From positions 1-25,860 of IMG/VR virus record IMGVR_UViG_3300043587_000020: 25,860 bases of DNA; one strand, given 5' to 3'. Below, piece by piece: positions 7,534 to 25,732 of the stretch. Position 1 is the stretch's first letter. The number at the start of each line of letters is the position of its first letter. The notes beneath the pieces are model-generated. The model had not been told where the DNA came from, did not search any database, and saw only the letters and a program-made list of their open reading frames with translations. Source of the stretch: a virus. The position numbers and the translations under genes were made by a program.

Positions 7534-8286
7534 CTAGGGATTCTGGTCGGTCAGTACACAAGCCAGTATCCACACCCCGGTCACCGGCGCCTCGACCGTG
7601 AGCACCCGCTGCTTCTGAAGTTCGCTACCCGGCTCGCAGGAAGGCCCAGCGGGCCCAACTGGCCCCTGCGGTCCGACAGCACCCGGCTCCCCCTTCGGGC
7701 CCTCCGCTCCCTGTTCGCCGGTCTCGCCCTTCGGCCCCGTCTCGCCTTTTGGGCCGGTCTCGCCCGGCTCACCTCTCGGCCCGGTCTCACCTACCGCGCC
7801 GACCTCGCCTGACGCCCCTGTGAGGCCGCGAGGACCCAGCGGGCCCTGTCCCCCCTGGCACTTGCTGACAAGGATCAGGCACCCCGGCGCAGCCCCAGCC
7901 GGGCCCTGCTTGCCGGGCAGCCCCTGGACGCCCTGGACACCAGGTACGCCCTGGACACCAGGTACGCCCTGCGCACCCTGGACGCCCTGCGGGCCCTGCG
8001 CTCCACGAGGACCAGCAACACCCTGCGCACCCTTCTCAGCCGGCGGCCGTTCCATGATCTCTTTCGTCTGCTGGCACACACCCCGGCCGAGAATCTTCTC
8101 CGCCTGGGCAGCGTTCGCCTTACACGCCGCCTGGTTCTTCTCGGCCAGCGACACCAGCTCGCCCTGGGCGTTCGCCTGCCCGTCCTCCGCGTCCTGCTTC
8201 TGCAACGTGGTCACCACCAGCCCGGCCGCCCCGAGCAGCATCCCGAGCACAGCCACAACCGGCACCAACCACCTAGCCCGCGTCAT
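7534..8286 (-). CDS. Membrane-anchored collagen-like protein (250 aa)
   Basis: Residues 6-26 form an N-terminal membrane helix after a basic start (MTRAR). Residues 30-82 are a helical stalk with two Cys (55, 71). Residues 86-131 and 145-216 are Gly-X-Y collagen-like blocks rich in GPQ, GVP and GETGPKGE. A Cys-containing break (GCLILVSKC) separates the blocks, and a 30-residue C-terminal cap has Cys217 and Cys243. Phage collagen-like regions usually form trimeric fibres. The anchor is unusual for a virion fibre and suggests a host-envelope location instead. It overlaps the upstream gene by 14 bases. An 18-base tandem duplication is visible around 7935-7972. Confidence 0.85.
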   Translation of the reverse strand: MTRARWLVPVVAVLGMLLGAAGLVVTTLQKQDAEDGQANAQGELVSLAEKNQAACKANAAQAEKILGRGVCQQTKEIMERPPAEKGAQGVAGPRGAQGPQGVQGAQGVPGVQGVPGVQGVQGLPGKQGPAGAAPGCLILVSKCQGGQGPLGPRGLTGASGEVGAVGETGPRGEPGETGPKGETGPKGETGEQGAEGPKGEPGAVGPQGPVGPAGPSCEPGSELQKQRVLTVEAPVTGVWILACVLTDQNP

Positions 8287-8566
8287 CAGCACTGGCCTCC
8301 CGAGCGTGCTTCGCTTTCGGATCTGGCGGCGGGAACGAGAGCAGCTCGTCCAGGTCGGCCGGCTCCGTACCACCAGCTTCCGACAGTAGATCGCGCAGAG
8401 CCGCTACCGCCCGCCGCACCCTCGGCCGCCACCGCTGATACGACTCCAGCTCGGCGACCATCTCCCCGTCCAGCTTGCCCCGACGACGGTCCAGCGCCGC
8501 GTAGGCACCGAACACAGACGCGATCATCAGCCCGATTGCGCTGATGATCGCTGGCAGGTCGCTCAC
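8273..8566 (-). CDS. Small membrane protein, holin-like (97 aa)
   Basis: The GTG start follows GAGGG. Residues 4-24 form one membrane helix (AIISAIGLMIASVFGAYAAL). Residues 27-75 are a charged, coiled-coil-like helix and the tail is polar. The length and arrangement resemble small phage membrane proteins annotated as holins with one helix. Since a two-helix candidate lies beside the lysin, this could be a second holin, an antiholin or a partner of the collagen-like protein whose gene it overlaps. Its N-terminus lacks a cleavage site, so it is likely to stay in the membrane. Confidence 0.72.
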   Translation of the reverse strand: MSDLPAIISAIGLMIASVFGAYAALDRRRGKLDGEMVAELESYQRWRPRVRRAVAALRDLLSEAGGTEPADLDELLSFPPPDPKAKHAREASADDAG

Positions 8567-9409: not shown

Positions 9410-10084
9410 CTAGATGTTGGATTTGTAGACAGCGATGGCGTGGACGAACGCGGCCACCCCACCGGAAGGCCAGGTGCCGACCCCGATAGTGGCGGTGCCG
9501 GTGACGGTCAGCGTCTCTCCGCCGGACAGGCCCGTGAAGCGGTTCCGGGATGAGGCCCCGACGCCGACCGTGGCCCCGGGCGTGGCGAGCACTGCGATCG
9601 CACCGCCGCCTCCGCCGTTGCAGCCCACCTCGTACGCCAAGAAGCCGTTGGCTCCGCTGGTGTTCTGCGCGGACGCGTTCCCGGCAATCATCACGATGGC
9701 CTCGTCGGCCCAGTCCGGCACCACGAGCTCCGAGGTCGTACACACGACCGTCCCCAGCACGGTCGGGGCCCACGCACCAAGGTTCTGCGCGCCAGCCGAA
9801 CCGAACGCCACCGACGCCGCAGCAAAGTTTGCATCCCCCACAGGCGTCACCCGGCCGATGATGAACCACGACGCGCCCTGCCCGAGCAGCACCACGACAT
9901 GCCCAGCCTTCAACGCGATCGCCTCGCCCGTGTTCAGCATCGGCACGTTCGTCAGCGTCGCCCCGCCCACCAACACGCTGTTGCCGCCAGTCGAAGCGTT
10001 GAAGTCAGTCAGCAGACCCTGACGCATCCGGACCCCCGGAGCCTCCGGGTCGAACAGCGGAGCCAAGTCATCCGAGACACCCAT
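9410..10084 (-). CDS. Minor tail protein with beta-rich fibre domain (224 aa)
   Basis: The ATG overlaps the DUF5047 gene stop (TGATG); a GTG three bases upstream is the other option. Residues 1-70 form an N-terminal attachment region (LAPLFDPEAPGVRMRQGLLT). Residues 75-224 are rich in Gly, Ala, Thr and Val with a Gly run (CNGGGGGAIAVLAT) typical of phage tail-tip beta domains. It is probably part of the distal tail fibre or hub, directly after the hub-like DUF5047 protein. Confidence 0.72.
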   Translation of the reverse strand: MGVSDDLAPLFDPEAPGVRMRQGLLTDFNASTGGNSVLVGGATLTNVPMLNTGEAIALKAGHVVVLLGQGASWFIIGRVTPVGDANFAAASVAFGSAGAQNLGAWAPTVLGTVVCTTSELVVPDWADEAIVMIAGNASAQNTSGANGFLAYEVGCNGGGGGAIAVLATPGATVGVGASSRNRFTGLSGGETLTVTGTATIGVGTWPSGGVAAFVHAIAVYKSNI

Positions 10085-11226
10085 CACAGGCCCCCGATCA
10101 GTTCGGACTGGCGCTGCCTGGTCTTGATCTTGGCCGTCTGGGTCACGTCCAACGGGATCGTGATCTCATCGATTACGTGCCGCTCGGTGCGGTAGTCCGC
10201 CGTGCGGGCCGTCTGCGCGTTCTTCACGTCGATAACGTCCCACGCTTCCAGGGCCGGGTTCACGATCGACGTCACCTCGGCCTGGTACGGCGTGCCGAGC
10301 TGTTGCCGCAGGATCGCCGCCGCAGCGGACGCGGCTTGGTCCTGAGTGGTGATGAACGGCGAGCTGTAGAAGCGCGGCACGGGACCGAACGGGCCGTTGT
10401 AGTAGGTCGGGGAGGCGGGGTCCAGGTTGTATGCCACGGCCGTCACCGGCGGTGTCGTGTCGGCCGCCTCGCCGGTCGCGACCACCGCGTTGTAGACGCC
10501 TTCTCGAGTCAGGGTCCGGCCCATCGTCACCAGCACCCCGTCTTGCCCGGCGTCGATCGACCACGCCGGCGTGCCCAGCACAGACGGCGGAGTCTTGATC
10601 ACGAAGATGCCCCGGTGATCCCAGTAGCCGACCTTGCCCAGCGAGGTCAGGAACTCTTTCAGCGTGCCGAACCGGTCCTCCTCCGCGATCACCGACCGGC
10701 CCACCGGCCCGTCACGCAGCACGGCGTCGTCCCACTCGATGATCGACGGGTGGTAGTAGACGCCCCAGATCAGCGCCTCGACCAGTTCACGACGGGCCCA
10801 CGAGGACGGGAACTGCTGCGGGGTCACGAACCGGGCATCGATCAGGCCCTGGGACCGGTCAGGCAGCACCATCCGGATCGAGCCCGCCGGCGAGTCGTCC
10901 TGCTCCATCGTGTCGATCCGGAAGTAACCGAGCCCCACGAACTCGCGCTGCCCTACGGCGTACTCGATGCCGCGCTCGACGTAGATGTGGGCGCCGTACG
11001 GGGTTAGGTCTTGCGCGCCAGACCTCGGCCAGTCCGCGCTGACCGTCAGGTCCAGTGTCGAGTAGACGTCGTTGGTGGCCGAGTAGGTCACCGACCCGCC
11101 CAGCACATCCAGCAGGGCGCCAGTGGGGGCCGTGCCGGTCTGCCACGACGTCACCAGCCGGGCACGCACTACCGCAGTGTGTGAGCCGCGCAGAGCCGCC
11201 AGGAAGCGAGCCGACACACCTCTCAT
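10084..11226 (-). CDS. DUF5047-family minor tail (hub-like) protein (380 aa)
   Basis: The N-terminus MRGVSARFLAALRGSHTAVV is diagnostic of the DUF5047 family of actinophage minor tail proteins. A beta-rich domain follows (residues 40-130: GGSVTYSATNDVYSTLDLTV, then FRIDTMEQDD). A second half resembles tail-hub proteins (AEEDRFGTLKEFLTSLGKVG; NAVVATGEAADTTPP; the closing TYYNGPFGPVPRFY and DVIDVKNAQTARTAD). It probably builds the tail-tip ring that connects tube and fibres. A GAGAGGA site precedes the ATG. It is complete at the usual family length. Confidence 0.85.
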   Translation of the reverse strand: MRGVSARFLAALRGSHTAVVRARLVTSWQTGTAPTGALLDVLGGSVTYSATNDVYSTLDLTVSADWPRSGAQDLTPYGAHIYVERGIEYAVGQREFVGLGYFRIDTMEQDDSPAGSIRMVLPDRSQGLIDARFVTPQQFPSSWARRELVEALIWGVYYHPSIIEWDDAVLRDGPVGRSVIAEEDRFGTLKEFLTSLGKVGYWDHRGIFVIKTPPSVLGTPAWSIDAGQDGVLVTMGRTLTREGVYNAVVATGEAADTTPPVTAVAYNLDPASPTYYNGPFGPVPRFYSSPFITTQDQAASAAAAILRQQLGTPYQAEVTSIVNPALEAWDVIDVKNAQTARTADYRTERHVIDEITIPLDVTQTAKIKTRQRQSELIGGL

Positions 11227-17190: not shown

Positions 17191-20100
17191 TTAGACGTCG
17201 GCGGTGGTGTAGTCGATCCGGGCAACGTCGGAGTTCCGCAGCACCGCGCTGCCGGTGTAACCCCAGACCGCCATGTCGATCGACTTCACCTGGTACTCGA
17301 ACGTGAACCGCTTCGGAGCCGACAGCCACGCCCAGACGCTCGACGGCACGAACAGGTAGCTGTTCTCGGCGTTGTCCAGGATCGCCTGGGACAGGGCCCA
17401 CGCCGGACGGAAGGTCTGACCGAGCACGTTCGCCGAAGAGGCGACCGCTTCGACCTGGCCGTTGGCGTTGGTGGGGCCAAGCATCGGGAACAGCGGGCGA
17501 CCAGCGGAGTCCTTCGCGGCAGCGATGGCCTTGTACAGCTGAGCGTCAGCCGCAGCGGCGGTGTACCGGTTACCGCCGCGCACGTACTGGAGATCCACGA
17601 ACAGGTTGGTCAGCGCGGTCTGTAGGGCCCCGTCGACGGCGCCGGCGAGGTTGATCTCGGCACCGCTGTACAGGGTCGCTGCGGAGAGCGCGTTCAGCAT
17701 CGTGGCGATACCGACCTCGGCCGCTTCGAAGTACGCGTTCTGCATCTCCTGCCAGACGATCGTGTCCGTCTGCGGGTTGCCGCCCTGGTCCCACACCTCG
17801 CGGTTGATCTCGACCTTGCCGGAGATCGCGGTCGGGGTGACGGTCTGCACGGTCGCAGCGAACGCGCCCGGGGTCGGCTCGGTGCCCTGGGTGTGGGGGC
17901 CCACCAGTCCGGATGCGCTGGAGAACTTCGGCACGGTGAACGGCGTGATGCTGTCCAGGGTGCCCGTGGTTGCCAGGTCGAACAGCGGACGGGTGAACTG
18001 GAGGCTCGGCACGTACAGCTCGGGCCGGTTCTGGGTCGGGTTGAACGCTGACACGTTGGTCGTGGTCACAGCGAACTGCTGGTGAGCCTCTTCCATGAAC
18101 GTGTCCAGACGCTTCTTGGCGACCTGGTTGCCGTTCTGCATGTCCCGCAGGTCGTCGGTGAAGCAATGCTCGCCGGTGGTCGACCCGTCGAAGCGGTACG
18201 GCAGCTCCTCGGTGACCGCGAACTGAGCGACCTGCTGACGGCCGGCAGCGACAACCTCACGCTGACCGGGCAGCACACCGGTCTGGCCAGCCTCGGTCAG
18301 CAGTTGCGCGAACGCCCCACCGATCGACGCGGTCAGGTCGGCCTGGAACTGGACCGGGTCAAACCCTGCGTTGGTCTCGGACAGCTCGACCACTGCCGGA
18401 GCAGCGGTGAACGCCGCCAGGACAGCTGCGTCACACTGCACGACTCCCGCAGCGTGCAAGGCGCCACACTTGGTGCACTTCATGGTGTTCCCTTCGTTGT
18501 TGGCTGATAGCGCCACTGCGGTCACTCGTGCGTCCTCGAATGCGGGCACGGTGCACAAACTGATCTCGGACAGGGGCGCGCCCGACGCGAACAGCACCCC
18601 GTCGTCTTGCCGAGCGAACCGGCCGCCGGCCTTGAACCCAGCCGACAGCCCATCCCACAGACCCTCGCTCGCCATCAGCAGAGCGTGGTCACCCTCGGGA
18701 ATGTTCGCGATCTTCAGCTCGGCGTACAGGCCCTCAGGCCGGTCGTCCAGCTTGGTAGCGAACCCGATCACCCGGGCCTTGTCGTGCTCGACGTACACCT
18801 TGACCCGCTTGGGGTCGGTGAACGCGATCGAGCCGCGCTGGAACGCGTACGTCTCGCCCTGGTTGATGGCCGTGGCGCCGGCGTACGGGACCGCGAGCCC
18901 CGAGATGGTACGAGTGGCGAGGTTCACCCGGAACTCCGGGCCACTGACCGCAGTCAGTTCGAGCTCGCCGTCGCTGGCAAGCTCGATCGCGGCCGGGGCC
19001 ACAGCCCGGATCTGTCGGACGTTGTCGTTCACGGGCTGGTCTCCCTGCGATACGGCCGGGGCCTTCGCCCGGCTACGTGCGGCCCGCTGAACAGGCGTCA
19101 ACGGCGGCATGCCCTCACGCTCACGGATCTCGTCCTCGTCCAGCAGGCCGATGTCCAGCGCGATCTTGTACGCCTCCCACCGGGCCTTGGTGTCGGTCAT
19201 CGCGAACGCGTCCACGTCCGCCCGGACCACCTGCCCACGGGGCGTCACGTCACCCATCGAGAGCCGGTCCGCGATCGCGTTGATGTACATCCCGAGCACG
19301 AAGTCGATCCGGTCACGGCGCTTCGACTCGGCGTTCAGGTACGTGCGGCTGGTGGTCGACACGGCCAGGTCCTCGGAGTCGAGACCGAACAGGCGCGCGA
19401 TCTCCAGCACGGCATGCTGCCTCGCCTCGGCCAGCTGAAGCTTCTCCGGGTCCCACGCCAACTGCTCGTAGTCGAGGCCGCCGGGCACGTACGCCGTCGA
19501 CTCAGTCAGCCGCTTAGCAGCCCACTGGTTCAGGAACTTCGACGCGGTGAATGCCGCGTCCTTCTCCTCGTCCGTGGCGTCCGCATCGGGGTCGTCATCG
19601 AACGGGTCAACGCCGTCCTTCGGCGTGAAATACCCCTCAGGGACCGGGTTGTTCGCCGAGACGTACGCCCGGTTGTCCAGCATCAGCAGGGTCATGATCG
19701 CGCCGCCGCCGACGATGAGCACACCGTCTGCGGGAGAGTCGAACCGGATCAGCTCACGGTCATCGATGTAGTCGTACGAGTCACCCTGCAGAGACCCGTC
19801 ACGCGAGACATAGGTTTTGTTGTCCTTGCGTTGCTGGACCGAGCGTGGCTCCAGCCGCCGGACATGCTTCGGGAAGCTCGTCAGCGCCTCGCCCATCCAC
19901 TCGGTGACCCGCCACCACGCGGTGCCCTCGAACAGCAGGTCCTCGACGGTGTAGCTCATCGTCACCGAGCGGGGGATGTCACGCTCGGGCTGAGCCAGGA
20001 GCTCGGGGGTGGTGTGTTGCTGGTTCGACCGGTACGCGGCCCACGTCAGCGCGCCGATCGGGGTGCAGATCAGGTTCCGGCCACGCAGCACGGCGGGGCA

Positions 20101-20280
20101 CTGGATCGCGAGGGCCCGGGCGATACGTGGCTTGCGCGCCACCCCCTGGTCGTACGACGACAGACCGAAGAACTCCGGCGGGATCTGCTCGGACCCGACC
20201 GAGAACTGCGGGCCAGCGACATCGTCGGCCAGCGAATCGGTCAGCTGGAGTGCGTCCCTGATCCGTTGCATGAGGCCCAT
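17191..20280 (-). CDS. Portal - prohead protease - major capsid fusion (1029 aa)
   Basis: One uninterrupted frame carries three head functions. Residues 1-416 are an HK97-type portal (EDLLFEGTAWWRVTEWMGE; ARLFGLDSEDLAVSTTSRTY; EDEIREREGMPPLTP), the 12-subunit ring for DNA entry. Residues 417-599 are an HK97-family prohead protease: His499 in VYVEHD, Ser546 in GLSAGF and Glu572 in SEISL are the expected catalytic positions. Residues 600-1029 are the HK97-fold major capsid protein, beginning MKCTKCG with Cys602/605/616. Each part has the length of a normal separate gene. In-frame starts with ribosome-binding sites lie at both joints (GTG 19032, ATG 18483). The first ATG at 20280 has no clear ribosome-binding site; Met4 is an alternative. 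Confidence 0.88.
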   Translation of the reverse strand: MGLMQRIRDALQLTDSLADDVAGPQFSVGSEQIPPEFFGLSSYDQGVARKPRIARALAIQCPAVLRGRNLICTPIGALTWAAYRSNQQHTTPELLAQPERDIPRSVTMSYTVEDLLFEGTAWWRVTEWMGEALTSFPKHVRRLEPRSVQQRKDNKTYVSRDGSLQGDSYDYIDDRELIRFDSPADGVLIVGGGAIMTLLMLDNRAYVSANNPVPEGYFTPKDGVDPFDDDPDADATDEEKDAAFTASKFLNQWAAKRLTESTAYVPGGLDYEQLAWDPEKLQLAEARQHAVLEIARLFGLDSEDLAVSTTSRTYLNAESKRRDRIDFVLGMYINAIADRLSMGDVTPRGQVVRADVDAFAMTDTKARWEAYKIALDIGLLDEDEIREREGMPPLTPVQRAARSRAKAPAVSQGDQPVNDNVRQIRAVAPAAIELASDGELELTAVSGPEFRVNLATRTISGLAVPYAGATAINQGETYAFQRGSIAFTDPKRVKVYVEHDKARVIGFATKLDDRPEGLYAELKIANIPEGDHALLMASEGLWDGLSAGFKAGGRFARQDDGVLFASGAPLSEISLCTVPAFEDARVTAVALSANNEGNTMKCTKCGALHAAGVVQCDAAVLAAFTAAPAVVELSETNAGFDPVQFQADLTASIGGAFAQLLTEAGQTGVLPGQREVVAAGRQQVAQFAVTEELPYRFDGSTTGEHCFTDDLRDMQNGNQVAKKRLDTFMEEAHQQFAVTTTNVSAFNPTQNRPELYVPSLQFTRPLFDLATTGTLDSITPFTVPKFSSASGLVGPHTQGTEPTPGAFAATVQTVTPTAISGKVEINREVWDQGGNPQTDTIVWQEMQNAYFEAAEVGIATMLNALSAATLYSGAEINLAGAVDGALQTALTNLFVDLQYVRGGNRYTAAAADAQLYKAIAAAKDSAGRPLFPMLGPTNANGQVEAVASSANVLGQTFRPAWALSQAILDNAENSYLFVPSSVWAWLSAPKRFTFEYQVKSIDMAVWGYTGSAVLRNSDVARIDYTTADV
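18481..18495 (-). promoter_or_regulatory. Internal capsid start: SD and in-frame ATG
   Basis: GAAGGGAA (18495-18488) precedes an in-frame ATG (18483-18481), with six bases between AAGGG and ATG. The same GAAGGGAA occurs at the gene joints at 2792 and 3109. The ATG opens the capsid part exactly at its natural N-terminus (430 residues). A TGA lies one base out of frame inside ATGA, the usual junction form in this genome. Confidence 0.72.
19030..19046 (-). promoter_or_regulatory. Internal protease start: SD and in-frame GTG
   Basis: AGGGAG (19046-19041) stands eight bases before an in-frame GTG (19032-19030), residue 417, in a GTGA context with the TGA one base out of frame. Starting here gives a 183-residue protease of normal size (first residues VNDNVRQIRAV). 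Confidence 0.65.
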
Positions 20281-20384
20281 AGCGCTGATGGTACATACGA
20301 GATCCGGAATATGCGCTGTATGCCGATCTGCGGGGTTTTCAGGGGGTGGGGGTCACTGGGGTGCCTGACGGGCCCTGAAACCGG

Positions 20385-20431: not shown

Positions 20432-22036
20432 CTACGCGGCAGACACCAGGCCCTGCGACTTCCGGCGCGGGATCGTCCGAGCCAGGAACACCGCTCCAGC
20501 CGCCGCATACGCCCCATCCACATTCGCAGCCCCCCGCCGCACAAACCGGAACCCGTCACCCGAAACCTGCTTGTTCGCGCCGAGCACATGCGCCGTCAGC
20601 ATCGGGTCACCCGAGTGCCGCACCCGCCCAGCCTTCACCTGCTCCACCAGCCCCTGGCACGCCGACGACATCCCCACCCCGTCCAGAGGCTCGATCCCCC
20701 GGAACTTCCGCGCCAACCGCTGCATATGCGGCGCCGCCGCCGCCGCCGGCCCGTTCGGGAACCAGCCGATCTTCTTCGGCTTCACCTTCCGCAGCATCGC
20801 CGGAATCCCGCCATCAGCGAACGCCGCATCCAGCGACGGCCACGCCCCCAGCACATCCAGCCGCGTCACGCCCGAGTCATCCACCGCCGCCGCGATCAGC
20901 GACACATGGTCGAAGTCCGGCGCCACATCCAGCGTCACCGCCACCCGAGACCGCAGCTTGGCCAACGTCGCAGACGGGTCCTTGCACGCCGTCCAGTGCG
21001 CCTCCTGGATCGCAGCCCGCAACGCAGGCACGCCCTGGCACAGGTGCTCCGGCCGGAACACCGTCGCCGGCAGATTCGCCTTCGACGCCAGTGTCGCTTC
21101 CGAGATCGTGCCGTGCCCCAACGCCGGGTTCGCCCGGGCCCACTGCTTGCGGTCCCACACATCGCAGCCGTCCTCGCCCGACCACTCCAGCAGGCACAGG
21201 GTGTCGTCGCCCTCCCCGTCCTCGATGAACGCCAGCGCAGACGCCCGCAGCGTGTTCAACACGATCGACCCGTCATCCCCCGCGTTCGACAGCCCGTACA
21301 TCTGCGCCTTAGGCCGGGCCGTCGTCGCCCCGTCCATCGCCGCCCAGCCCTCCCAGCCCGTGTCCTGCTCGCCCTTCTGCCGGTGCTCCCGCAGCTCATC
21401 CGCCAACCCCAGATCGATCGACAACGACCGGCCACCCGTCCGGCCCGCAGTCGCCGTCTTGTAGACCGCGCCGTTCGTCAGCTTCAGCGACGTGTCCAAC
21501 GCCCCGTACTTCGCCAACTGCACCCACCGCTCCCGCGCTGGCAACCAGCGCTTCACCACGTCCGACCCGTCATCCAGGTCATCCATCACCAGCCGCGAAT
21601 GGGCACGCCGCCGGGCAGCCTGAAGATCCCGCTCCTGCGCCAAATCCACCGCCGCCGCCCACGCATCCCGCGCATACGACATGTTCGTGGACGTCCCCAC
21701 CACCAGCCGCGCATCGTCTTCCAACATCCGCCACAGCGTGAGGATCTTCAGCAGGGTCGTCTTGCCGTTCTGCCGCGCCACCAGAATCAACACCACCCGG
21801 AACCGGTACGACCCGTCCGGGTTCAACTCCAACGCCCTGATCAGCGCCAGCTTCTGCCACGGGAACAGCCGGACACCCAGCCGCTCAGCGAACCGAATGC
21901 ACGCGAATCCCTTGCTGGTGGCATCCGTGAGCTTCCGCTTGGGCGGCGTGCCAAGCCGAGGCTCGGCCACCCCCATCAACGGCTTGGTCGCAGCCGCGCG
22001 CACCCGGCGCTTCCTGGCCGCAGCCACAGCCGCCAT
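20432..22036 (-). CDS. terL: Terminase large subunit (534 aa)
   Basis: ATPase motifs are clear: ARQNGKT (residues 87-93) as Walker A and SIDLGLADE (206-214) as Walker B, with the GLSNAGDDGS coupling motif at 248-257. The C-terminal half has an RNase H-like nuclease start, VTLDVAPDFDHVS (Asp370), typical of large terminases. The enzyme pumps DNA into the capsid and cuts the concatemer. It is of full family length. The start shares a base with the 71-aa gene stop (TGATG). An HNH endonuclease lies two genes upstream, as in many cohesive-end phages. Confidence 0.93.
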   Translation of the reverse strand: MAAVAAARKRRVRAAATKPLMGVAEPRLGTPPKRKLTDATSKGFACIRFAERLGVRLFPWQKLALIRALELNPDGSYRFRVVLILVARQNGKTTLLKILTLWRMLEDDARLVVGTSTNMSYARDAWAAAVDLAQERDLQAARRRAHSRLVMDDLDDGSDVVKRWLPARERWVQLAKYGALDTSLKLTNGAVYKTATAGRTGGRSLSIDLGLADELREHRQKGEQDTGWEGWAAMDGATTARPKAQMYGLSNAGDDGSIVLNTLRASALAFIEDGEGDDTLCLLEWSGEDGCDVWDRKQWARANPALGHGTISEATLASKANLPATVFRPEHLCQGVPALRAAIQEAHWTACKDPSATLAKLRSRVAVTLDVAPDFDHVSLIAAAVDDSGVTRLDVLGAWPSLDAAFADGGIPAMLRKVKPKKIGWFPNGPAAAAAPHMQRLARKFRGIEPLDGVGMSSACQGLVEQVKAGRVRHSGDPMLTAHVLGANKQVSGDGFRFVRRGAANVDGAYAAAGAVFLARTIPRRKSQGLVSAA

Positions 22037-24253: not shown

Positions 24254-24859
24254 TCATCGGTCGTGGCGTTCGTCTTCGTCCAGGGTGTCCAGGTAGCGCG
24301 GCTCCTGGGGTAACGGCCGGACGTGATCACCCGGACCCACCGGTGTCCAGAGGGTTCCCCGTGGCTTCACGGGGAACCGGTGCCAGTGGCAGTCGTTGTG
24401 GACCTCGAACCAGGACGCGACGTAGAGGTCCCGGCCGACGTGGATGGCTTCTATCAAGGTCCCGGTGACGGTGACGGCTAGCCTATGCGGCCCTGCGTAT
24501 CGGTGGTAGCGGCATTCGCAGGGGACCTGCCAGGACTCGGTCCAGTGGAGTTGGCAGTCGGGGTCTGGTTCCATCTCGGGTGGGCTGTCCATGGTGCCGG
24601 GGTACCAGTAGCAGGTGCATTGGGCGGGGCGGCGGTCTCGCTGGCCGTGGACGGGGCAGCAGGGGTCTGCGGGGCGTCCGGGGTACCAGCGGGGTGCGTG
24701 GCGGCAGGTGCAGCCCGTGGTGAGCTGCTTGGGGAAGGCGGGCGTGACGCCGTAGCCGAGGCAGATCACGATGATCTGGTGTGCGCGGGATTCTGCCCAG
24801 TGGCGTACCTGGCCGTATGGGACGGCCCAGATGCTTGGGAGTGGGTCGGGGTCAGGCAT
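24254..24859 (-). CDS. Cys-rich hypothetical protein with duplicated motif (201 aa)
   Basis: The ATG overlaps the RusA stop by eight bases. The N-terminus (WAVPYGQVRHWAESRAHQII) is helical. Residues 49-122 hold an internal near-duplication of Cys-x-Cys...WYPG: CTCRHAPRWYPG then CTCYWYPG, with further CCPVH, DC and CEC groups, so several metal sites are likely. Residues 125-165 are a beta domain (LAVTVTGTLIEAIHVGRDLY, then HNDCHWHRF). The acidic-basic tail ends the protein. I do not recognise the family; coupling to RusA suggests DNA processing. Confidence 0.8.
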   Translation of the reverse strand: MPDPDPLPSIWAVPYGQVRHWAESRAHQIIVICLGYGVTPAFPKQLTTGCTCRHAPRWYPGRPADPCCPVHGQRDRRPAQCTCYWYPGTMDSPPEMEPDPDCQLHWTESWQVPCECRYHRYAGPHRLAVTVTGTLIEAIHVGRDLYVASWFEVHNDCHWHRFPVKPRGTLWTPVGPGDHVRPLPQEPRYLDTLDEDERHDR

Positions 24860-25358
24860 GGGGGACCGCCAGGGGGAGTGTGGTGGGCAGGTAGCCGACC
24901 GGCCGCAACTGGCAGTACATGCCGGGCGTGGTGGCTGAGTCACCCAGTCGGTCGATGGACCAGAACGGGTCATCGGCGTATACCTTCTTCGCTTCGATAT
25001 CCACGATCTGTGCGTCGTTGGTGAGCACGCCACAGGACTCCAGCGCGTCGAGGGCGAGCCGGACGAGCTTGTCTAGGTCGCCGCCGATGCCTTGTGCTGA
25101 CTGGGTGGCGGGGTGGGTGCGTTGGGCTGCGGCGGGGGTGCGGGTGACGGCGAAGAGTAGTCGGATGGCGAGTGGCTGGCCGGGGGATGCGCTTTCGCGG
25201 ATGAAGGTGGGGGCGGCGTTTTCGATGAGTGCGCGCCAGGGCCGGTTGCGGGTGGCTTGTTCGCTCATGATGACGCGGCCTTGGTGGATGCGGCCGACCA
25301 TGGAGCCTTTGGGTGCGGGTTCGCCGTAGACGCGGAAGGCCCATGTCTGGGTGATCAC
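24852..25358 (-). CDS. rusA: RusA-like Holliday junction resolvase (168 aa)
   Basis: GTG at 25358 overlaps the previous stop (GTGA). The RusA pattern is present: YGEPAPKGS near the N-terminus, the acidic core GGDLDKLVRLALDAL (Asp94, Asp96), then TNDAQIVDIEAKKVY (Asp115). These three Asp are the expected metal-binding catalytic residues. RusA dimers cut four-way junctions made during phage recombination and replication. It probably acts with the ERF annealing protein encoded across the window junction. The C-terminal 30 residues (beyond SIDRLGD) are a Pro/Leu-rich extension. Confidence 0.88.
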   Translation of the reverse strand: MITQTWAFRVYGEPAPKGSMVGRIHQGRVIMSEQATRNRPWRALIENAAPTFIRESASPGQPLAIRLLFAVTRTPAAAQRTHPATQSAQGIGGDLDKLVRLALDALESCGVLTNDAQIVDIEAKKVYADDPFWSIDRLGDSATTPGMYCQLRPVGYLPTTLPLAVPHA

Positions 25359-25732
25359 CAGCGGGTTCCGTACCGGTTGCAGTGGTCGAGCTCGGTGTGG
25401 TCTGCGGCCAGGACGCAGGGGCTGTCGGCCTGGAATCTGTGCTGGGCTGCGCAGGGGGTGTAGTCGATCCAGCCGTCTACCTGCGCCGAGGCGATACCGG
25501 TCCGCAGCGCATGGTCGCCGGTGCAGTCCGGTGCGCCCTCGGCGTTCTCTGTGGCGTAGGCGGCCAGCGCGTCCCACTCCTCTCGCGTCAGCAGGACCAC
25601 ATCGGTGCGCGTGTCGATGTCGGCCCGGCCGCCGATCTGCTTGAGCGAGACGGGGTGCCTACTGTCGCCACCGATCGAGAGGGTGGTGACGTAGTCGTCG
25701 TTGTCGATCTGGAGCATGCGGGTGGTGTCCAT
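25355..25732 (-). CDS. Hypothetical protein (125 aa) before rusA
   Basis: The ATG at 25732 (MDTTRMLQIDNDDYVTTLSI) follows a GAAAGG site. The frame stays open into the window end, so a longer N-terminus is possible but not needed. The N-terminal part is beta-rich and followed by helix (LTREEWDALAAYATENAEGA). The C-terminal half has four Cys and several His (PDCTGDH, TPCAAQH, SPCVLAADH, DHCNRYG), spaced like paired zinc sites. Coupled to RusA. No family recognised. Confidence 0.8.
   Translation of the reverse strand: MDTTRMLQIDNDDYVTTLSIGGDSRHPVSLKQIGGRADIDTRTDVVLLTREEWDALAAYATENAEGAPDCTGDHALRTGIASAQVDGWIDYTPCAAQHRFQADSPCVLAADHTELDHCNRYGTRW

Follow-up and report, generated by a model that had tools for sequence, protein, structure and literature searches.

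In phage HK97, the portal, protease and capsid genes are separate, and the capsid protein carries a scaffold domain at its N-terminus (PMC10275583). In small actinophages, a two-way capsid-protease fusion has been described (PMC5513430, PMC7302621), and a 'major capsid and protease fusion protein' is found in clusters AN, AX, FE, EE, CW and DM and in Rhodococcus phage RRH1. The portal can also be joined to an adjacent head gene, as in the portal-MuF fusions of Arthrobacter and Microbacterium phages (PMC5513430, PMC7302621), but these fusions include neither protease nor capsid. Nested in-frame head genes are represented by C/Nu3 of phage lambda and by the UL26/UL26.5 pair of herpesviruses. For lambda, a B-C-Nu3 initiator complex is supported (PMC3224144). 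The ordinary components, the two-way protease-capsid fusion and nested in-frame protease/scaffold head genes are all already known.

The window, which is the whole stretch of DNA analysed here (25,860 nucleotides, IMG/VR record IMGVR_UViG_3300043587_000020), contains a single open frame for portal, protease and capsid (17191..20280, 1029 aa), which is also found in two close contigs. All coordinates given are those of the window and all of the features lie on the minus strand. The folds and order of the three parts, and a scaffold-like helical region before the capsid core, are as in HK97. However, the three genes of HK97 are separate and here they form one frame, with a putative nested capsid gene. 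As in the actinophage fusions, the protease, the scaffold-like region and the HK97-fold capsid are in one frame and the gene order is the same, but in those phages the portal is always a separate gene (in the AN/EE-like ones, mostly with an ATGA or GTGA overlap), and this feature is not shared by the window. The likeness to C/Nu3 and UL26/UL26.5 lies in the pairing of a scarce protein that contains the protease with an abundant product started in frame in the 3′ part, both of which are inferred here, and start signals for such a 3′ product inside a longer gene are present in the window frame. In those pairs the nested product is the scaffold, whereas here it would be the complete capsid protein, and the fusion also takes in the portal. 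This comparison is one of mechanism, drawn by analogy, and we do not claim sequence kinship. No description of the three-way fusion, of its breadth or of the nested capsid start was found in the open-access literature searched, though an earlier description is not excluded.

The portal segment (residues 1-416, 19033..20280) matches Pfam Phage_portal over residues 62-390 (2e-27). The protease segment (residues 417-599, 18484..19032) includes a disordered linker to about residue 446 in an AlphaFold2 model and matches Peptidase_S78 over residues 458-593 (2.7e-9). Its S546 is invariant and its H499 nearly invariant among 46 aligned fused proteins, so the catalytic Ser and His expected of an S78/HK97 prohead protease are in place, although the score for TIGR01543 is under the cut-off of that model. 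Other matches of the frame to NCBIfam models were likewise found solely under their cut-offs. The capsid segment (residues 600-1029, 17194..18483) is identified by the PHROGs profile phrog_2263, 'major head protein', which spans residues 442-1026 (8e-41), by the structure model and by HK97-fold matches in the PDB. No PDB relative of the capsid part was found by sequence.

In the AlphaFold2 model, for which the 46 aligned fused proteins were the input, disordered linkers (residues 408-446 and 586-600) separate three folded domains. Within the capsid segment, an N-terminal piece with a C-x2-C motif is followed by a helical, scaffold-like region (helical stretch 642-667, then disorder at 682-691) and by the HK97-fold core from approximately residue 692. 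When compared with the PDB using Foldseek, the single chain matches both HK97 portals (3kdr, 8fql) and HK97-fold capsids (2fs3, 1ohg and others). The profiles, the structure model and the fold matches together show that the frame holds a portal of the HK97-type fold, an S78 prohead protease and an HK97-fold capsid.

A first-pass annotation had claimed one stopless frame of 1029 codons with segments of 416, 183 and 430 residues, an in-frame GTG at 19032 (codon 417) and an in-frame ATG at 18483 (codon 600), and all of these proved exact. Its further claim that each segment has the motifs of the stand-alone portal, protease or capsid was also upheld by Pfam, PHROGs, the AlphaFold2 model and Foldseek. 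It had stated that two-way head fusions are known in phages and that it could cite no three-way one, and this too held, as two-way fusions are described and a three-way fusion was not found in the open-access literature searched.

The upstream neighbour of the frame encodes the terminase large subunit (20432..22036; phrog_9, 9e-66). Elsewhere in the window are genes for a collagen-like tail fibre protein (7534-8373, PF01391) and a DUF5047 tail protein (10084-11226, PF16466 and phrog_1887). An ERF-type recombination protein and a RusA-like resolvase are found at 1206-2147 and 24852-25577, and recombination genes are therefore located at both ends of the contig.

When the full frame was used as a single-protein query, scans of the viral and genome collections gave no match, and neither did a tblastn search of cultured phages with the capsid segment. 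However, using the neighbouring terminase as query, a contig from a different metagenome (IMGVR_UViG_3300049142_000047) was reached that carries one frame of 1050 aa, 74 % identical to the window frame end to end. A further contig, IMGVR_UViG_3300028596_000580, is 65 % identical to the window and is fused as far as the contig end reaches. Two profile scans, one with the capsid part and a separate one with the portal-protease part, were then combined with bacterial genomes, and this yielded 122 frames with all three domains. The 99 of these that share less than 80 % identity are referred to as the representatives. Three-way prophages were found in Nocardioides psychrotolerans, N. bruguierae, Micromonospora sp. 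KC723 and 15K316, M. globispora, Salinispora vitiensis and Labedaea rhizosphaerae. Of 201 Micromonosporaceae genomes drawn evenly, at least 9 contain a three-way frame; this is a lower bound, as the initial pass scored few candidates per genome. A genus-level census within the Nocardioidaceae recovered several split loci and one clear three-way frame, which belongs to the query genome. None of 50,697 cultured-phage records covered 80 % of the query when the window protein and the Micromonospora and Nocardioides fusions were used in tblastn. The continuity of portal, protease and capsid is conserved in a wide family of Actinobacteria phages and prophages.

It could be argued that an assembly or sequencing error has joined three ordinary genes, particularly as the window is a single uncultured contig. 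However, the identical arrangement is present in independent contigs and in sequenced isolates. In addition, dN/dS between the window and L004, the only pair for which it is complete, is 0.22-0.59 in all segments, indicating purifying selection. This explanation, which the first-pass annotation had listed as a possible refutation, is all but excluded. The second refutation it had listed, namely that homologues invariably have three separate genes and identical DNA at the joints, met with the opposite outcome, and searches of the kind that it had proposed, for portal, protease and capsid in one chain, returned the 122 fused frames.

Every in-frame ATG and GTG was scored using the duplex energy of the 15 nt upstream with the 16S tail. 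At the protease/capsid joint (J2), the ATG at 18481..18483 is preceded by a Shine-Dalgarno (SD) site, GAAGGGAA, at 18488..18495 (duplex −9.5 kcal/mol), and this is the strongest SD/start pair within the window frame. Of the two nearest relatives of the window, L089 retains the site as GAAGGGAA and L004 as GAGAGGAA. With a threshold of −8 kcal/mol or lower, which was set on the first scan and then applied to the second, a J2 start was present in 51 of 53 non-duplicate fusions from the first scan, compared with 52 of 2745 other in-frame ATG/GTG codons. In the separate second scan, the figures were 61 of 67 versus 43 of 2714. Over the representatives, 93 of 99 have the J2 start against a background of 84/4546 (1.8 %; Fisher 2.5e-136), but this value overstates the support, as the relatives are not independent. 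At least one internal start is found in 96 of the 99, and the remaining three have J2 sites of −6.3 to −7.7.

It is likely that selection at J2 acts on the DNA and not on the protein alone. The residue pairs that encode the SD site vary (GG, EG, ER, RK and GE), mRNA structure is reduced at J2 in 47 of 51 fusions, and third-position GC is 0.56 there versus 0.89. Between the window and L004, pS is 0.225 in the second link and 0.37-0.64 in the remaining segments. The mean SD energy is −10.2 compared with −7.0 in synonymous resamples, 13 % of which reach the observed value, though individual loci are rarely significant (below 5 % in 15 of 51). Owing to strong codon bias, a sliding-window test of synonymous conservation did not reach significance on its own for the two closest pairs.

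The best natural test of the J2 start is provided by three relatives in which the frame is broken, as the capsid begins at the same place. L100 has a separate capsid gene (MPCALCN) whose SD-led ATG comes just after a stop codon, while in L134 and L151 the capsid gene is in a different frame with its own SD (−9.2 and −10.4). L099 was considered as an additional broken joint but was set aside, as it is a mosaic remnant without a capsid gene. In that locus (L099:4488-6900), a portal-protease frame ends in a short stray extension, after which comes a tail-type gene, and the locus is apparently a decayed or rearranged prophage. The nested capsid of the window begins MKCTKCG (within 18432-18483), and a C-x2-C motif is found at the N-terminus of 57 of 114 nested capsid proteins, including those of L004, L005 and L100, with His or Cys mostly next. 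At the front of the scaffold-like region, this motif may resemble a small zinc ribbon, but only a likeness is noted and no function is assigned.

The first-pass annotation had proposed a ribosome-binding site and in-frame start at J2, which held and is conserved across the family, and nested internal initiation, which at J2 is strongly supported by the conservation, the second scan and the frame-broken relatives. Initiation at ATG 18483 is nevertheless an inference, if a likely one, with SD strength as a proxy and no transcript, ribosome or protein data.

These observations bear on two alternatives. In the first, only the 1029-aa polyprotein is made and the protease cuts it to equal amounts of portal, protease and capsid, in the style of small RNA viruses. 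The single unbroken frame, the intact protease residues and disordered linkers suitable for cleavage are consistent with this. However, it leaves the conserved translation-start signals at J2 unexplained, does not account for relatives whose capsid gene begins alone at J2, and would give a portal:capsid ratio of 1:1. We consider it very unlikely, and the earlier claim that a polyprotein alone would give the wrong ratio is upheld.

In the second, the J2 start makes all of the functional capsid and the continuity is incidental, with a capsid tail on the portal-protease protein simply tolerated. In favour of this, L100, L134 and L151 are not continuous at J2 and their genes are still intact, and split relatives are known at the portal/protease joint (J1). 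Against it, J2 is open in 122 frames and broken in 3, whereas neutrality predicts about one third in frame, and a 1-nt indel in the short linker would break the frame while sparing a separately started capsid gene. The count is weakened by shared ancestry. With that caveat, we regard incidental continuity as unlikely, and the continuity suggests that the long product matters.

What the first-pass annotation did not notice is that no SD site precedes the portal start, which usually has a −10 box just upstream. In the window, the SD duplex at the portal start is +0.9 and a −10-like TACCAT (20288..20293) lies 7 nt ahead of the ATG, a likely leaderless promoter. TANNNT is the preferred −10 in Mycobacterium smegmatis and other mycobacteria, where approximately a quarter of transcripts are leaderless (PMC6448022). 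SD is usually absent from the portal starts of the three-way fusions, and TANNNT is found 5-8 nt ahead of the start in 56 of 92 representatives, with NANNNT in 22 more. In the first set it was present at 38 of 47 loci versus 4/2987 other in-frame starts, but in the second set at only 31 of 63 (5/2714 for other in-frame starts). The window shows both features expected of a leaderless start, an absent SD and a TANNNT some 7 nt ahead of the start codon, but its closest relatives have only a weak −10 match (GAGCAT in L004 and GATCAT in L089). The portal mRNA is likely to be leaderless, but this is inferred without RNA data, and on transcripts that begin farther upstream the portal would have a leader.

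A third alternative is that the capsid is supplied from an internal promoter and not by ribosomes entering the long mRNA internally. The search for promoters inside the frame was not exhaustive, which leaves some room for this. However, a TANNNT box at leaderless spacing was found at none of 53 J2 starts and, as the SD is present, the nested start codon would be used regardless. An internal promoter as the source is therefore improbable.

At J1, the GTG at 19030..19032 (duplex −8.1) is preceded by an SD-like AGGGAGA at 19040..19046 and is a possible start for a protease-capsid protein. The window, L004 and L089 all retain GGGAGA-(n)-GTG although it lies within the fastest-changing linker, and this conservation leads us to infer that GTG 19032 is probably used in the clade of the window. 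L070 and L071 have no J2 start, yet carry an SD and GTG at J1. However, an internal J1 start with an SD of −7 or lower is found in only 36 of 99 representatives and is therefore not the general solution. The earlier claim of a ribosome-binding site and in-frame GTG at this joint thus holds for the window and its clade but fails as a general statement. Where relatives have portal and protease split, the stop codon of the first gene and the start codon of the second overlap, in most cases as ATGA or GTGA. A quick tree with long outgroup branches requires at least four changes between the fused and split states, indicating that joining or separating at J1 has occurred repeatedly.

The reading that we consider best, and likely, is that a rare portal-protease-capsid polyprotein is made together with abundant capsid from the nested start, though use of the starts is inferred and there are no expression data. 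Most of the capsid protein would come from independent initiation at the SD and ATG 18483, the capsid gene being nested in frame in the 3′ part, and this step is strongly inferred. In the clade of the window, GTG 19032 probably supplies some additional protease-capsid protein. The portal start, on an mRNA that is leaderless or otherwise free of an SD, would be weaker, and the full-length protein is for this reason inferred to be a minor product; in M. smegmatis, mean expression is higher for SD-led than for leaderless genes (PMC6448022). The full-length protein may enter the portal ring and so carry the protease into the procapsid. This protein may later be cut within the linkers (408-446 and 586-600) and where the scaffold-like region ends (about 682-691), by analogy with HK97 proteases, which cleave the N-terminal domain of the capsid. 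Cutting is possible because the protease residues are intact, but the earlier suggestion that some fusion product is cut by its own protease remains merely an inference. A weak portal start and a strong capsid start would suit a head, which takes hundreds of capsid subunits but only 12 portals.

The nearest cultured phages found by tblastn have genomes of 14-18 kb and infect Arthrobacter, Microbacterium, Gordonia and Rhodococcus. Their portal gene is accompanied by one annotated 'major capsid and protease fusion protein' or similar. In all 12 of the 12 such fusion genes sampled (L010-L013 and L080-L087), the strongest internal SD/ATG is at the protease/capsid boundary, and in Corgi and Schiebs the internal capsid start sits after a longer linker. 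GenBank annotates each of the 12 as one product. The relevant sections of PMC5513430 and PMC7302621 do not mention an internal capsid start and treat the gene as a plain fusion. A bolder reading, which we think as likely to fail as to hold, is that about a dozen polyproteins come from the weak leaderless start, seeding the procapsid and carrying in the protease along with the portal, that the strong nested SD start yields the hundreds of capsid subunits, and that the annotated 'capsid-protease fusions' of many cultured actinophages are two genes in one frame.

The name 'major capsid and protease fusion protein' in many GenBank records probably conceals a second, more abundant product and, if so, capsid mass, copy number and virion proteomics of the phages concerned have possibly been misread. 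Head assembly needs very unequal amounts of portal, protease and shell, and how phages set these ratios is usually untested. The three-way family seems to set the ratio through start-site strength alone, and altering single codons in laboratory phages could test this. The position of the protease, behind the portal, points to a simple route by which the protease may be carried into the procapsid.
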